This document shows, piece by piece, positions 1-20,033 of a stretch of 20,033 nt of DNA. The translations under genes were made by a program, and so were the position numbers. Each line of letters starts with the position of its first letter. The first letter of the stretch is position 1. The notes beneath the pieces are model-generated. The model saw nothing but the letters and a program-made list of their open reading frames with translations. It was not told the DNA's origin and searched no databases. Source of the DNA: a virus. The DNA lies in the IMG/VR virus record IMGVR_UViG_3300030329_000060, positions 3,876-23,908 of that record. One strand, 5' to 3'.

Positions 1-1141
1 GAGTATTTATATCTTCTACAATAGAATTACCTGAAGCTGATGTTCCTGCTAGTATAGCCATATCAGCAACACAATCAGCAGTACCTAACAATGCCATATC
101 TGCTACACAATCGGCAGTACCAAGTAAACCCATGTCCTCAACTACTGCCGCAGTACCAAGTCTAGCTAAGTGACCAGTTGTGGCATGTGCCATAGCACTT
201 GTACCAAGTAAACCTACTTCTGTAGCCTTTGCCGCTACTGCATTAACATCTGCTACATTAGTTGCAACTGTATTAACTAGTGCTATATTCTTAGTTGTAC
301 CACCTGTACCTGCTGTACCATCTGTACCATTTATAAGTGTGTTTACTTCTGTTGAATCTCCTGCAACTGTTGCTACTTCACTAGATATTCCTGCTACAGT
401 AGCGGAATTAGTCTTGTCAGCAGAGGTAAGCCATGTGTTCTCAAGGTACGTCTTAGTAACTGCATCATCATTTGCAGTAGGTGCGGCTACCTGTGTAATC
501 CTCTTCTTAGTAGTAGTTCCCGGCTGGTATGCTTCAAATACACCTGTACCTGTATTAAATGGTAAGGCTTGATCAGCAGTTACAATAGCTTGCTGTGCCA
601 TGTGGAATACGTTGAGACTTGAGTTATCTAAGTCTTGCTCTGTTAGAATAGAGGCATTAGAGAAGTCAACTGAAGGAGAGTTTTCATTCTGTATAGATCT
701 ACGGACTTCAATAATAGTGGAATCAGTAAATGTTAAATTAGAGTTCCCTGCTCCAGAAGGATATATACCACCATTTTTATAAAGATTTGTTGCTAGTATT
801 TCTCCTGTATCAACCTTTATTAACTGGTTAGCAGTATCAATTTCCCATACAGTATTACTTGTGTCACTCCATGTTGCTGATACTCCGTTTAATGTTGTGG
901 CAGTATTACCATCTTCAAGGAAACCTGTACCACTGGCATAGTTGGAATCATCTGTTCTATATATTCTTACACCACCAACGTATACCTTAAATACATCTCC
1001 ACTTGTAGACTTGTAAGAATCACCAGCAGAAGGTGTGAACCCAAGAGTACTATAGTCAAACTCTATTTTATCTCCATCAGCATATGTACTACCATCAAAG
1101 GGATTCCATATCTTACTAGTTAATGTGGTTTCTAATGCCAT
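1..1141 (-). CDS. Tail fibre protein, T7 gp17-like N-terminal part (3' end cut by window edge)
   Basis: The frame opens with ATG at 1141 (protein start MALETTLTSKIWNPFDG) and stays open for 380 codons to the window edge, so only the N-terminal part is present. A good ribosome site (AAGGATAAT) precedes the ATG. Residues about 1-175 look like the virion-anchoring domain of T7-type tail fibres. The diagnostic stretch is RRSIQNENSPSVDFSNASIL, followed by TEQDLD and a helix LNVFHMAQQA (about 145-185). After it comes a linker (LPFNTGTGVFEAYQ) and then, from about residue 240, a repetitive region rich in V, A, T and G. This includes three 12-residue repeats of the form LLGTADCVADMA near the edge, probably the start of a trimeric shaft. 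The fibre attaches to the tail and recognises the host. It follows gp16, as in T7. The tip domain is not in the window, so receptor specificity cannot be judged. Confidence 0.88.
   Translation of the reverse strand, partial: MALETTLTSKIWNPFDGSTYADGDKIEFDYSTLGFTPSAGDSYKSTSGDVFKVYVGGVRIYRTDDSNYASGTGFLEDGNTATTLNGVSATWSDTSNTVWEIDTANQLIKVDTGEILATNLYKNGGIYPSGAGNSNLTFTDSTIIEVRRSIQNENSPSVDFSNASILTEQDLDNSSLNVFHMAQQAIVTADQALPFNTGTGVFEAYQPGTTTKKRITQVAAPTANDDAVTKTYLENTWLTSADKTNSATVAGISSEVATVAGDSTEVNTLINGTDGTAGTGGTTKNIALVNTVATNVADVNAVAAKATEVGLLGTSAMAHATTGHLARLGTAAVVEDMGLLGTADCVADMALLGTADCVADMAILAGTSASGNSIVEDINT
56..163 (-). repeat. Three tandem 36-bp repeats coding a 12-residue fibre repeat
   Basis: Units lie at 163-128, 127-92 and 91-56. 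They encode RLGTAAVVEDMG, LLGTADCVADMA and LLGTADCVADMA. The last two units are identical in protein but differ at 7 of 36 bases, all synonymous. Degenerate copies flank them (LLGTSAMAHATTGHLA before, ILAGTSASGNSIVEDIN after). They lie in the shaft region of the tail fibre. Confidence 0.85.
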
Positions 1142-1165
1142 ATTATCCTTATTTAATTAGTTTAA

Positions 1166-1190
1166 TCCGTAAATGTCCATTTATTGATTA
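1166..1190 (-). promoter_or_regulatory. Candidate phage RNA polymerase promoter upstream of the tail fibre gene
   Basis: On the minus strand the core reads TGGACATTTACGGA, 25 nt upstream of the fibre ATG, in the 39-nt gap after gp16 and overlapping its stop codon. A near-copy (13/15 in the core, 20/25 over the longer window) lies at 19626-19650. It ends in an AT-rich segment followed by GGA, which suits initiation by a T7-family RNA polymerase. The position equals that of T7 promoter phi17. This is inferred from repetition and position only. Confidence 0.5.
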
Positions 1191-4100
1191 AAGAATGAAT
1201 CATATCCTTCAGCTTTTTGATCCTCAAATTTTGGAAGTGTACCTTCTCCATGTTGTAGTTGATACTGTGTTAGTCCTCTTTGCCTTTCTTCAACTCGCTT
1301 TGCAAGTTTAGGATACTTTTCTAACAATAAGTTCCATGCGTTATCTTTATAAGCCCTTATAATCTTAGAAACCTTTTTTAATCTCCAATTTTTAGGGCCG
1401 GGATTATCTGGATATACTCTATTAGCATCATAAGCATATTTACTTGATCCCATAAGTATACGGAGAGACTCAATCATCTTCATTCGTTTACCTGTGTTTG
1501 GGTGTCTGAACATAGGTTGAGTACCTATGTACATCTTATAGTCAGCAAACTGTTCTGGTGTTAATTGTATACCTAATTCAGTTCTCCATCTTTGAGGAGC
1601 AGTGACAGAAAATCCCATACGTACTAGCTCTTGTATAACAGGATCTATTTCTTCATAGGTTTTCCAAGCATAACCAGACCAATAAGAAATATCTCTTTCT
1701 ATCTTTTCTCCAGTTATCCAGTTCCACTTTTCTCCTCCAAGACTTTCCCAATTACCAGTTAGATTAGCTATATCAACATCCCATTGTTCACCTATATTAG
1801 CAATCTCTTTATAGTCATCATGTCCTTGAATTGCATGGAATCCTTGTCCTATTATCTTCGGGAGTCTTGCATTTTTAAGAATAGGTTTATCAACTAAGGC
1901 TGTTTGAATTTCACCAGTTCTTCCTGCTTCCTCCATCATCTTAAAGAAATTATAGAAGTTACTAATAAAATGCATATCACCAAGTGACTGCATTATAGCT
2001 AATAACATTCGTTCACCAATCTCTTCTTTATTATTATTGTATTTCCATGAGTTTTCATACACATTAGCAACCATCATAAGTGGGCCTGAGAATGGAGCAA
2101 GTCTATCATAAGGATACCAGTTATCTCCAAACTTACAAGAGTATGGTTCATATCCAGCAGCTTCCCATAGTGCACGTTGTTTAGGATCACTTGGCCCTGC
2201 TCCGGTACACTGTCCTGAAGTAATTAGTGATGCGGTTGCTCCTAACAATGTAGTAGATATTGTAACATCTCCTAATACTTCTGCTTGTTCTTCTGGAGTT
2301 CCATTCCATTTTCTCCTAACTTCTGATCTCATGGCAGACATACCTACTGTCCTTTCAGTAAGACGTTTGACCACGTTTGCGGGAGTTCTCATAATAGGAA
2401 CGTATAGTTCAGCAGGAGGATGGCTCTTAATAAAAGCCTGTAAATCAGCACTTAAACTTCCGGGTACTAAGTCCTCTTGGAATACTATTTTTCTAGCATA
2501 GTTTAATCCTTCTTCACTAGTTGCTCTTCCTAGTCTATCATAATACTCTGATAGCTGTTGTTTAGCCCATACTCTTCTTACTTCTGGTGCTGCCTTTCTA
2601 ATATCATCAGGCATTCTCATCATTACTTTACCATAAGCCCACGCACCATAATTTATCTGTTTAAGAAATTCATCTATTGATCCTATACCTCTAGTAGTAA
2701 GTCTAATTGCTTGGCCTGTTAGGTTAAGTGTTCTAGCTAAAGGATCAGAAGCATTTGGATTAGCCGCAATAGCGAACTGTCTTTTTAATTCGTGTTCTCC
2801 TTTTAAATTCTTTAGTTGTTTATTTGTTTCATCTACTACTGATCGTAATGGATCTAGTACATTTCTTTCATGCATTAGGGCATATAAGGCTTGCTTTGCC
2901 GCTCTAGGATAGTGAAGCATTATACCTCTAGCACGATGTGCTGATTCAAGTAAGGTATCCATTTGTGCTGGTTTTCCCATTAATGTACGAACCCCACCAA
3001 TCATAGCATTTCCTATCATATCTCTTGCCATAGGATAGAATGTTTCTACTGTGCCTGATACAATAGCGGTTTCAAATACTGTTGTAGAACCTAGTATTAT
3101 ATTCCTATACACTTCCATTACACCATCAAATATCCTACCATTTACTGCTTTAATACCACGATCAATTAATGCTATAGCTTTTAGTGGATCATCTGCCTCT
3201 CTCATAATCGTTCCGATTGTGCGTACCATATCAGGATTCCACCCGTTCTTACTCATCTGTGCGGAGATAAAAGCATTTCTTAAACCTTCTTCTTCTTTAC
3301 TTAACTTTTTCAATGCTCCACCCTTATCTAACCACTTAGGAGGAACTTCTATTTTAAAGCTGGTTACAGCCCTACCTAATTCTCCTCTAATGTTACCATA
3401 GTAAAAGTAGAGATCAGATATTTGTTGGAAGTCATTTTGTAATGCTAGTAGTACCTGAGGATCATGGAGTCTATCTAAGTTACTATCAATACTATTAGCT
3501 AAGTCTAGGGATAGATCTCTTAGTACTACTCTATAAGCAAACATATGTGCCCCTGCATCCTTCACATCCTTATACTTCTTTAACATTGCTTTCTTAAGTT
3601 TGTTACTAGACTCACCTCGTAAGGTTGCCGCTACTTCAAACTCAGTCATCTCATCATAAATATCCTCACCCTTTTTCTGAGTAGCTGTTTGTCTCTCTCT
3701 TTCAATTAAACCTGTGGATGCTTTCTTCTTACCTTTATGTTTGCCCGACTGTATAGTATGATATGTCCTTTTAAATACATTCCTCTTTTTATATACAGCA
3801 GCAATAGCTCCTATTACCTGTTCCCACCCTAGTTCCTGTGAAGCTCCAATGTTTAATACTCTCTTACTTTTATCTAGTTTACCAGTCAACATAGCTGTGA
3901 TTGCTGTTTCAATATCACTATCACCTAAAGCTACAGCTTTTAATACTAACTCCTCTTCAGGAGTCATTCCCTCCTTGTATACTTTTGTTGCTGGCTTTCC
4001 CTTTTGGGTTTTCTTTGATTCAGCCCTTTCTAATTTCTTTCTAAGTTTTTCCAGTTTTTCTAGAGCCGCTTTATTTTTACTAGTTTTAGTAACACCATCC

Positions 4101-5182
4101 ATATATTCTTTAATATCGGCTGCTCCTATCTGTGAAATCTTAGCTAACTCCCCTTCAGATGCACCTAAGTCTTTTGCGTGATACCATTTTTTTGCTAATC
4201 TATATGTTTTCATTGAGAGTTCAACCATCTCATTACCTAACTTACCAATAGCAGTACCTTCAATAGCGATCTTTAAGTATCCTTCTGCGGCTGAGTCGTT
4301 GGGATTAGACTTTAAGAAGCTGATGACAGGCTCAAGTAGTGGTATAGGAGTATCCTCAACATACTCATGTAAAGCGTCTGACAATCTTGGTTCATGAGGT
4401 TTAAATGTAAGCATAGTACCAGCCACATCTCTAGCTATTCCTGTAGGATCGTACTGAAACTTATAATTTAATGTGGGGTGTGTAACTGTACCTGTCGGAA
4501 TCAGGGCTCTTGTCATAAGAATACCACTTAGGTATCTTGATAGAGGTTTTAATACTTTATTGATGCCATACTCAGGTTCAGGATACTCAGGTAAATGAAA
4601 GGCTTCCCCCTTTTCAATCTTATCTTCTAGGTAGCCATCTGAAGATAGAAAGACTAAGGGTCTGTCCTTATCAAATCCCTTAAATCCCGGTAGATTAAAA
4701 ACTAAATTATGATCTAAACCTAAGTAATCTAATGCTTTACTTCCTTCTTCATATATTTGTTTAAAACCAAAGAACTCTCCTGCATTCTTTATACCACTAA
4801 ACAAACCTCCACCAAAACCTCTTACAAGCGTGTCTGTCATATAACTAGGTTTATCAGGAGGCTCACCCTCTCCTTTAGTATTTATTGTGTATGGTTCACC
4901 TTCTCCAACAAATAAATTTGTCATACCTTCTTCAGCCCATTCTCCTATTTGTTCTCCCTTTTTCTTAACAACTTTTTCTAGAGAAGGTTCAACTGTAGTA
5001 CCTCCATAATCCTTTAGACCAAGAGACTGCTTATCCATTGCTCCTCCTTGAACTAAGTCACGAGGAGGATCATAAGGCATCTCATGTTCACTTCGTTTAT
5101 ACTCAGTTTCTTCTGGAGTAACCTCAAGACCTAATTCTTTTGAGAGTCTTTCTAACCAATCTTCTTTTAGTTCTTCAGCCAT
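1181..5182 (-). CDS. Internal virion protein, T7 gp16-like (1333 aa)
   Basis: This is the largest gene in the window, and its length (1333 aa) is close to T7 gp16 (1318 aa). It is the last ejection-protein gene before the fibre, as in T7. In T7 this protein forms part of the internal core and is ejected to help move DNA across the cell envelope. Features seen: a charged, acidic N-terminus; a short coiled-coil-like stretch near residues 367-390; a segment near 700-760 containing IGNAMIGGVRTLMGKP; a hydrophobic stretch near 971-989 (TISTTLLGATASLI); and next to it GYEPYSCKFGDNWYPYDRLA and PFSGPLM (about 1010-1033), a block I associate with gp16-type proteins of marine podoviruses. The T7 protein has a lytic transglycosylase domain at its N-terminus; I see no matching Glu-Ser/Gly-Met-Gln type motif here. 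The ATG at 5182 follows the upstream stop by one base (TAAtATG), with AGGA upstream. Confidence 0.82.
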   Translation of the reverse strand: MAEELKEDWLERLSKELGLEVTPEETEYKRSEHEMPYDPPRDLVQGGAMDKQSLGLKDYGGTTVEPSLEKVVKKKGEQIGEWAEEGMTNLFVGEGEPYTINTKGEGEPPDKPSYMTDTLVRGFGGGLFSGIKNAGEFFGFKQIYEEGSKALDYLGLDHNLVFNLPGFKGFDKDRPLVFLSSDGYLEDKIEKGEAFHLPEYPEPEYGINKVLKPLSRYLSGILMTRALIPTGTVTHPTLNYKFQYDPTGIARDVAGTMLTFKPHEPRLSDALHEYVEDTPIPLLEPVISFLKSNPNDSAAEGYLKIAIEGTAIGKLGNEMVELSMKTYRLAKKWYHAKDLGASEGELAKISQIGAADIKEYMDGVTKTSKNKAALEKLEKLRKKLERAESKKTQKGKPATKVYKEGMTPEEELVLKAVALGDSDIETAITAMLTGKLDKSKRVLNIGASQELGWEQVIGAIAAVYKKRNVFKRTYHTIQSGKHKGKKKASTGLIERERQTATQKKGEDIYDEMTEFEVAATLRGESSNKLKKAMLKKYKDVKDAGAHMFAYRVVLRDLSLDLANSIDSNLDRLHDPQVLLALQNDFQQISDLYFYYGNIRGELGRAVTSFKIEVPPKWLDKGGALKKLSKEEEGLRNAFISAQMSKNGWNPDMVRTIGTIMREADDPLKAIALIDRGIKAVNGRIFDGVMEVYRNIILGSTTVFETAIVSGTVETFYPMARDMIGNAMIGGVRTLMGKPAQMDTLLESAHRARGIMLHYPRAAKQALYALMHERNVLDPLRSVVDETNKQLKNLKGEHELKRQFAIAANPNASDPLARTLNLTGQAIRLTTRGIGSIDEFLKQINYGAWAYGKVMMRMPDDIRKAAPEVRRVWAKQQLSEYYDRLGRATSEEGLNYARKIVFQEDLVPGSLSADLQAFIKSHPPAELYVPIMRTPANVVKRLTERTVGMSAMRSEVRRKWNGTPEEQAEVLGDVTISTTLLGATASLITSGQCTGAGPSDPKQRALWEAAGYEPYSCKFGDNWYPYDRLAPFSGPLMMVANVYENSWKYNNNKEEIGERMLLAIMQSLGDMHFISNFYNFFKMMEEAGRTGEIQTALVDKPILKNARLPKIIGQGFHAIQGHDDYKEIANIGEQWDVDIANLTGNWESLGGEKWNWITGEKIERDISYWSGYAWKTYEEIDPVIQELVRMGFSVTAPQRWRTELGIQLTPEQFADYKMYIGTQPMFRHPNTGKRMKMIESLRILMGSSKYAYDANRVYPDNPGPKNWRLKKVSKIIRAYKDNAWNLLLEKYPKLAKRVEERQRGLTQYQLQHGEGTLPKFEDQKAEGYDSFFNQ

Positions 5183-19254: not shown

Positions 19255-19467
19255 TTATACTTGTACTCCTCCACCCTTATAATTAGAATGGGATTGTCCT
19301 TTAGCTTTACCTTTTCTTTTCTTCTTATACTTCGATGCTGACTCCTCTGTTTTAGGAGCATCCAATACTGCCATCTCTGCTTCTGCTACATTAGGAGTAT
19401 CCATTTGTGCAGGAGGTGGTGGGGGAGGAGGCATCTTAATCTGTGGTGCTGCTCTACGTGCTCCCAT
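19255..19467 (-). CDS. T7 gp7.3-like small basic protein (70 aa)
   Basis: The protein has a Pro run (KMPPPPPPPAQ, about 11-21), an acidic middle (VAEAEMAVLDAPKTEES) and a Lys-rich end (KYKKKRKGKAKGQ) finishing with YKGGGVQV. T7 gp7.3, a virion protein involved in tail assembly, has the same plan as I recall it: a run of helix formers, acidic centre, Lys/Arg stretch and a final GGGINI. The matching terminal Gly-Gly-Gly-hydrophobic signature and the location ahead of the portal support this call. The start has the best ribosome site of the window (AGGAGG, 6 nt away), placed inside the end of the 58-aa gene; the two overlap by 14 nt. A different-frame reading at 19167-19361 is rejected in favour of this one. 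Confidence 0.72.
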   Translation of the reverse strand: MGARRAAPQIKMPPPPPPPAQMDTPNVAEAEMAVLDAPKTEESASKYKKKRKGKAKGQSHSNYKGGGVQV

Positions 19468-19630
19468 ATTGATCCTCCTCGTATAACTGTGTAAGTCTAT
19501 CCACCACAGACTGTTGTCCTTGAAGGTATGCCAATTCTACTATATCACATCCTTTAGGTGGTAGTTTATTAGGAAACATCTCTTCTAAATATTGTATTAA
19601 TTCTTTTGAAACCAAGTTGTTATAGTCCAT
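19454..19630 (-). CDS. Small T7 gp6.5-like protein (58 aa)
   Basis: This short frame reads MDYNNLVSKELIQYLEEMFP at its start and ELAYLQGQQSVVDRLTQLYE near its end, closing at TAG. The C-terminal pattern, aromatic-x-Q-G-x-Q followed by a helix rich in V, I, L and E, resembles the end of T7 gp6.5 as I remember it, and the gene holds the same place. The function of gp6.5 is not known to me. The start codon lies inside the repeated promoter-like motif at 19626-19650, and no clear ribosome site precedes it. Translation may depend on read-through RNA from nrdJ, or an internal codon such as Met18 may be used. The overlap of its end with the well-supported next gene is normal for this compact genome. 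Confidence 0.6.
   Translation of the reverse strand: MDYNNLVSKELIQYLEEMFPNKLPPKGCDIVELAYLQGQQSVVDRLTQLYEEDQYGST
19468..19479 (-). promoter_or_regulatory. Strong Shine-Dalgarno site for the gp7.3-like gene
   Basis: On the minus strand AGGAGG is followed by ATCAAT and then ATG at 19467. This perfect six-base site lies inside the coding end of the 58-aa gene and fixes the start of the 70-aa gene. It suggests high expression. Confidence 0.8.
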
Positions 19631-19650
19631 AAATGTCCACTTTTGTATTA
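19626..19650 (-). promoter_or_regulatory. Candidate phage RNA polymerase promoter at the start of the late genes
   Basis: The minus strand reads TAATACAAAAGTGGACATTT then ATGGA, starting at the nrdJ stop codon. Its core matches the copy before the fibre gene at 13 of 15 bases. It marks the border between DNA metabolism and virion genes, where T7 has phi6.5. The AT-rich end followed by GGA fits initiation by a T7-type polymerase. Inferred from repetition and position only. Confidence 0.5.
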
Positions 19651-20033
19651 TATCTCACAAGAACCACTAGTACACGCTAGTTCTTGGGAAGAAATTGTGT
19701 TATCAAGTACCTCATAATCTTTTAAAGAACCCCAATTAATATCAGGTATTTGTTTAGTTAAGTTATTGAATTCTTTCTTTGAACACTCAGTGTATGGAGC
19801 TTGTTCATAAACATAATCAGAGTAAGGTAAGAAAGATACTCCTGATATACCTTCAAAATTCTTATACACAAATGCTCCAACTTCTATCCATTCGTTTTCC
19901 TTAACTGAAATTGTCTGACTGACTTTATGTTCAGCCCAGAACTGAGAGTACAATCTATGGAGTTCCAACTGACTGATAGCAGAGAAATCTTTTCTAGTTA
20001 GAGATGACTCAGGGGATCTCATGGGGAATGAAA
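19648..20033 (-). CDS. nrdJ: Ribonucleotide reductase class II (adenosylcobalamin-dependent), C-terminal part; 5' end outside window
   Basis: This enzyme reduces ribonucleotides to deoxyribonucleotides for phage DNA synthesis. The frame is open to the window edge (SFPMRSPESSLTRKDFSAIS), so the visible Met at 20022 is internal. The stretches QLELHRLYSQFWAEHKVSQT, NEWIEVGAFVYKNFEGISGV and SFLPYSDYVYEQAPYTECSK match the C-terminal part of the monomeric B12-dependent enzymes I know from marine phages and bacteria. The end, SSQELACTSGSCEI, carries the C-x4-C pair that serves as the redox shuttle regenerating the active site. No NrdB-like partner is seen, as expected of class II. The catalytic barrel and finger-loop Cys lie outside the window. 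It is the last metabolism gene before the late genes, a place known for marine T7-like phages. Confidence 0.92.
   Translation of the reverse strand, partial: SFPMRSPESSLTRKDFSAISQLELHRLYSQFWAEHKVSQTISVKENEWIEVGAFVYKNFEGISGVSFLPYSDYVYEQAPYTECSKKEFNNLTKQIPDINWGSLKDYEVLDNTISSQELACTSGSCEI

Follow-up and report, generated by a model that had tools for sequence, protein, structure and literature searches.

The window analysed here is a 20,033-nt stretch (positions 3,876-23,908 of the IMG/VR record IMGVR_UViG_3300030329_000060) from an uncultured T7-like virus of bacteria. Its main genes all lie on the minus strand in a T7-like order, running from the end of a ribonucleotide reductase gene through small ORFs, the head-tail connector, the major capsid protein, tail tube genes and internal virion proteins to the tail fibre (Table 1). 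The gp16-like gene, for which several tblastn matches are annotated as internal virion protein D, is separated by a gap of 39 nt (1142-1180) from the fibre gene, whose ATG begins at 1141. The original prediction placed a repeated motif at 1166-1190, stating that it overlaps the gp16 stop codon, leaves about 25 nt to the fibre ATG and lies mostly inside this gap. The coordinates agree: the motif covers the stop codon and 24 nt remain to the ATG. The same stop codon (1183-1181) falls within the promoter that we propose here, whose core GACATTTACG occupies 1177-1168, and we propose the G at 1168 as its candidate start, which leaves a leader of 27 nt to the fibre ATG.

Table 1. Features of the window discussed in the text, with coordinates counted from its first letter.
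Feature	Position	Strand	Remarks
Tail fibre, 5' part (continues beyond the window)	1..1141	(-)	Pfam Phage_T7_tail, E 4e-11
Proposed fibre promoter (-17 to +6)	1163..1185	(-)	GACATTTACGGA identical in 17/17 gap sequences; place as T7 phi17
Internal virion protein (gp16-like)	1181..5182	(-)	PHROG 6651 internal virion protein, E 1e-28
Small ORF (58 aa) after the second copy	19454..19630	(-)	Listed ATG (19630) inside the motif
Second copy, proposed late promoter before the virion genes	19623..19645	(-)	Same junction in relatives
Ribonucleotide reductase, C-terminal part, upstream of the second copy	19648..20031	(-)	Equivalent full-length gene in G003

The two copies within the window

The motif was also said to match a site 18 kb away, and we do find 20/25 equal bases between (-)1190-1166 and (-)19650-19626, about 18.5 kb apart. 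The best common part, TGGACATTTA[C/T]GGA[C/T]TA (TGGACATTTAYGGAYTA), agrees in 15/17 positions at (-)1179-1163 and (-)19639-19623, and since it reaches 1163 the real shared core extends three bases past the span first described. When searched with up to three mismatches the 25-mer recovered only itself in the window, and the 14-mer pattern occurs at chance level (3 matches vs a shuffled mean of 1.97). A 15/17 match between gaps arose in 7/300 simulations covering 8 intergenic gaps (648 nt including margins). Judged from the record alone, the two-copy match is suggestive of more than chance; the decisive evidence on this point is conservation in relatives, which indicates that the motif is far more than a chance repeat.

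The second copy (core GACATTTATG at 19637-19628) follows the end of the reductase gene, the full-length counterpart of which in the relative G003 matches PHROG 367 ribonucleotide reductase (E 2e-172). The start G proposed for this late copy falls within the listed ATG of the next ORF, which counts against it, although the true start of that ORF may be further downstream: in divergent relatives its counterpart begins downstream and the motif is still present. The claim that coding constraint cannot explain the distant match needs one correction, as the distant copy, with the ORF as listed, overlaps coding sequence. The reductase-virion junction in relatives also bears the motif core, with GCCATT instead of GACATT at the late site of G021. 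When this junction was examined without using the motif, 80 loci were retained from 591, and between 30 nt ahead of the match end and 90 nt beyond it the motif was present in 6/80, namely the five most similar loci (77-100%) and L195 (65%). Most of the 74 loci without it are presumed to be phages with other gene orders. At four reductase loci (L174, L175, L176 and L178) a common ACAACCTTTATAGAG stands after the reductase stop, right past the match end, and is perhaps the equivalent promoter of another T7-like group.

Conservation in relatives and sites at other gene blocks

The gp16-fibre gap was compared across relatives found independently of the motif: an alignment of the fibre N-terminus, used as the query against viral contigs, gave 16 loci between 91 and 49% identical. 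We found that the motif is kept in 16/16 of these loci while the remainder of the gap changes: in the 17 aligned sequences (the window and the 16 loci) all 12 bases of GACATTTACGGA are identical, the flanks are variable, and conservation reaches beyond the core into GGAYTRAM. In this gap the close loci read TGGAC, eight distant loci TAATACGAC and one AAAGAC. The 20-nt form GACATTTACGGATTRAACTT is exact in 13 viral contigs, all among the 16 from the fibre-protein search, and in 0 records of genome_contigs; the window, L140, L144 and L145 do not match it, their differences lying after the core. A first scan made with the motif itself gave 58 stretches (29 reductase-junction, 6 fibre-gap and 23 other), which we do not count as conservation evidence. 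A third context of the motif, seen in L037, L044, L047 and L053, was rejected as the coding C-terminus IYGLRR of other phages.

The window's own record, a 23.9-kb fragment, contains no polymerase gene. The relative G003, on a 33-kb contig, encodes a T7-type RNA polymerase (PHROG 414, E 9e-254; Pfam RNA_pol, E 1e-111), and a polymerase similarity search gave 27 loci. Among relatives 67-85% identical overall, the region [RK]R[IV][TS]THIDNVLIKP is nearly constant; it is the presumed specificity loop of the polymerase, placed by analogy with T7. We observe TGGACATTTACGWAGTAAA before the polymerase operon in 20/22 assessable loci, 5/27 being too short, and, in 23/27, TGGACATT-NNN-G in the polymerase-SSB gap right behind the polymerase gene; in L122 it lies about 120 nt further on. 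The misses at these polymerase-side sites fall in the group L129-L131: L130 and L131, whose polymerase is 68% identical and has the same loop, lack the sites both before and after the gene, and L129 lacks the site after it on a contig too short for the site before. The polymerase-SSB sites were chosen by GGACATT alone, so that their last G is not there by construction, and in 15/15 distinct forms a G stands four bases after the box. Over 54 distinct sites the per-position counts give an A/T-rich stretch followed by GACATT, three variable positions and a G; parts of the motif served to collect these sites, so that their fixed bases are partly by construction. Relatives with longer contigs carry GACATT-NNN-G upstream of the polymerase operon, downstream of the polymerase gene, and in front of both the virion genes and the fibre; it is thus a short motif repeated at gene-block starts in one direction, as are the promoters of T7-type polymerases. 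In G016 only the late and fibre sites are among the noncoding matches. An additional copy, TGGACATTTACGTARTTAAA, occurs in G006 and G020 at the gp12-gp13 junction, before the gp13-like gene, and was not seen in the window's record.

Location was also assessed over 12 contigs, six of which (G002, G003, G004, G006, G012 and G013) came from the motif scan, G003 also from the protein searches. With at most one mismatch to TGGACATTTACG, 17/18 matches lie in noncoding gaps, which make up 2.8% of the DNA, and in the six protein-search contigs (G003, G016 and G018-G021) the figure is 5/6. With at most two mismatches there are 38 matches, 21/38 of them in gaps. This total is not high, a reversed control pattern giving 56 on both strands vs 38 for the motif, and what sets the motif apart is its location, not the number of its matches. 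On the coding strand the 38 matches compare with 12.5 expected (sd 3.5), and on the opposite strand 0 matches with up to two mismatches compare with 7.3 (sd 3.0), both expectations from 15 Markov simulations of the 12 contigs, which are related, so that the strand counts are not independent. Antisense promoters may be selected against.

A proposed promoter for the phage polymerase and the alternatives to it

Taken together, these data make it very likely that the phage's own T7-type single-subunit RNA polymerase uses the fibre-gap site as a promoter, in the phi17 position and with a core unlike the CACTATAG discussed below. Directly observed are the sequence and position of the site, its conservation, its recurrence at block starts and the T7-type polymerase of relatives, from which we infer polymerase binding, the start site and an effect on fibre level. 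Promoters of T7-type polymerases have an A/T-rich upstream part, fixed recognition bases, a weak melting stretch and a G start, and the 54 sites display this layout, in part by construction and with the start as we have placed it. The polymerase would read the A/T-rich upstream part together with GACATT (-9 to -4), the three bases before the last G would melt, and RNA would begin at that G. A start there is preferred because the G is kept in all site classes; the +1 position is uncertain, as an alignment anchored on TAATACGAC or the Syn5 promoter would move it two bases further on. The transcript would then run through the fibre, the subsequent tail genes and probably the lysis and packaging genes, by which the last gene block would gain its own mRNA supply, as from T7 phi17. 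In G019 endolysin and terminase are among the genes after the fibre, which suggests that transcription from the site probably covers the whole right-hand block. Extra fibre expression, which the original prediction had expected of a separate promoter, may be a consequence. After its terminase gene the G019 contig (L156:6083-7225) also carries IscA-like (Fe-S_biosyn) and NifU/IscU-like genes, which on a T7-like phage contig are either auxiliary genes or a sign of a host boundary within the contig.

A promoter for the phage polymerase would explain the place, direction and repetition of the motif, its A/T-rich upstream part and its invariant G, and we weighed other explanations against it. One is that the motif acts in RNA, as a processing site or a translation signal within a long read-through message, in keeping with which 20/21 noncoding matches in the 12 contigs are followed 9-45 nt later by a listed same-strand ORF, and conservation continues past the core into GGAYTRAM. 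However, we found no stable structure (z 0.35), the biased part takes in the A/T-rich bases upstream of the core, and the phages HTVC168P and CRP-125 (see below) combine a different polymerase loop with motifs of unrelated sequence at the corresponding junctions, all of which makes a role in RNA improbable. We consider it very improbable that the motif is a DNA site for some other phage function, be it regulation, replication or recombination: an orientation-specific repeat at the DNA level would fit this in principle, but the noncoding copies stand at gene-block starts along the direction of transcription, and the junctions match those of another T7-like phage's motif.

A host sigma-70 promoter in the gap, or a repeat arising by chance, seems more improbable still. 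A sigma-70-like pair (9/12) does lie just upstream at (-)1227-1199, but the 501-nt stretch has two such matches, no more than shuffled sequence has on average (2.0), and the pair's TATGAT is absent between -60 and -16 in 16/16 fibre loci; likewise the p of about 0.02 for the match within the record leaves some room for chance, against which the 17/17 identity in the fibre gap speaks. There is next to no probability that a tiny reading frame, [A/G]TG GAC ATT TAY GGA YTA (MDIYGL), is being kept for its peptide. The differences between the window's two copies are synonymous or start-codon exchanges, as such a frame would have it, but we dropped it on account of relatives with AAG at the start and altered codons behind TAY, and of distant loci with ACGAC or AAGAC. 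Points against the proposed phage promoter are also its lack of the CACTATAG core, its uncertain start, the GCCATT of G021, the mere two noncoding sites of G016 and the fibre gap of CRP-125, which has no copy of that phage's motif. The overlap at the start of the late copy, the polymerase missing from the record and the gaps in L129-L131 weaken details more than the main conclusion.

Comparison with promoters of other T7-like phages

The T7 annotation places the start of phi17 at 34566, the stop of gp16 at 34549-34551 and the fibre ATG at 34624. Similar to phi17, the proposed fibre promoter sits at the gp16-fibre junction, points to the fibre and overlaps the gp16 stop, and this shared place, together with the 16/16 conserved loci, supports the separate fibre promoter at the phi17 position that had originally been suggested. 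However, the gp16 stop lies at -17 to -15 in T7, where phi17 begins with the stop codon itself, and at -15 to -13 here; the leader to the fibre ATG is 58 nt in T7 and 27 nt here; and the sequences are TAATACGACTCACTATAGGGAGA and AATAAATGGACATTTACGGATTA, respectively. A T7-like stretch does occur in eight more distant fibre loci, which read TAATACGAC from the gp16 stop on. According to the available part of one source, the T7, T3 and SP6 promoters have a common core CACTATAG at -7 to +1 (PMC13029058). This core is absent at the present site, which reads CATTTAYG and equals it in 4/8 positions. Since the Syn5 promoter is also without CACTATAG, this core would seem to be a mark of the T7/T3/SP6 promoters and not of the kind as a whole.

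The promoter of the Syn5 cyanophage RNA polymerase is given as ATTGGGCACCCGTAA in the part of the source at hand (PMC3950665). Syn5 is likewise a marine T7-like phage with a short promoter, and both its promoter and the present site fit TGGRCAYYYRY; another likeness is that G016 has only two noncoding sites. They differ in exact sequence, and in G003 and G020 further sites stand before and after the polymerase gene. The T7-like phage LUZ100 is described, in the available text, as having its own 17-bp promoter motif, partly like that of T7, at eight sites (PMC10134795); the likeness to our case, a phage-specific promoter motif, is one of description in that text and not of letters (PMC10134795). 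Two gap sequences, compared by BLAST with named phages, gave weak matches only, with E at least 6 (4/4 records and the best 15 of 32), and a letter search of the open-licence literature with TGGACATTTA and GACATTTACGG gave no title on phage promoters among the matches listed. For the group's polymerase, identity to the best phage record among the matches listed does not exceed about 39%. What results for this group of uncultured T7-like phages is a testable promoter consensus, together with a way of finding promoters without assuming CACTATAG, through short repeats at the fixed junctions of the polymerase, reductase, gp16 and fibre genes. In the portion available to us, a published CACTA screen reports no matches for some of its metagenomic polymerases (PMC13029058).

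Two phages whose polymerase loops differ from those of this group, HTVC168P and CRP-125, each have another repeated gap motif, first spotted by eye in their gaps. In Pelagibacter phage HTVC168P (OR420735; L163) GTnCCCnTnnTAG occurs at 2635, 5143, 14841 and 29043, on one strand and nowhere else; these copies are probably pelagiphage promoters. They lie before the polymerase gene and at the polymerase-SSB, reductase-virion and gp16-fibre junctions, four junctions that correspond to those of the present lineage, whereas the motif sequence and polymerase loop are different and the polymerases are 38% identical. The first HTVC168P site is directly before the polymerase gene, and that of this lineage before two small ORFs. 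In each of the two, virion and fibre sites have a common sub-type of start region that is absent from the polymerase-side sites (GGAYTA here, CCYTTTTAG in HTVC168P). CRP-125 (L164) has five exact copies of GGTTGCACCATAG, on one strand at the block starts 3393, 5934, 7558, 16908 and 36552, with no copy of this motif in its fibre gap; they are probably promoters of this roseophage, and the motif is, we presume, close to the SP6 promoter. With four junctions shared between this lineage and HTVC168P, and motif and loop differing, it is possible, if rather doubtful, that promoters keep their positions as the recognition code is exchanged; a split into middle and late classes would then predate the recognition sequence and not depend on it. 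Polymerase-promoter pairs from such lineages would offer a natural series on how recognition changes with promoter places constant.
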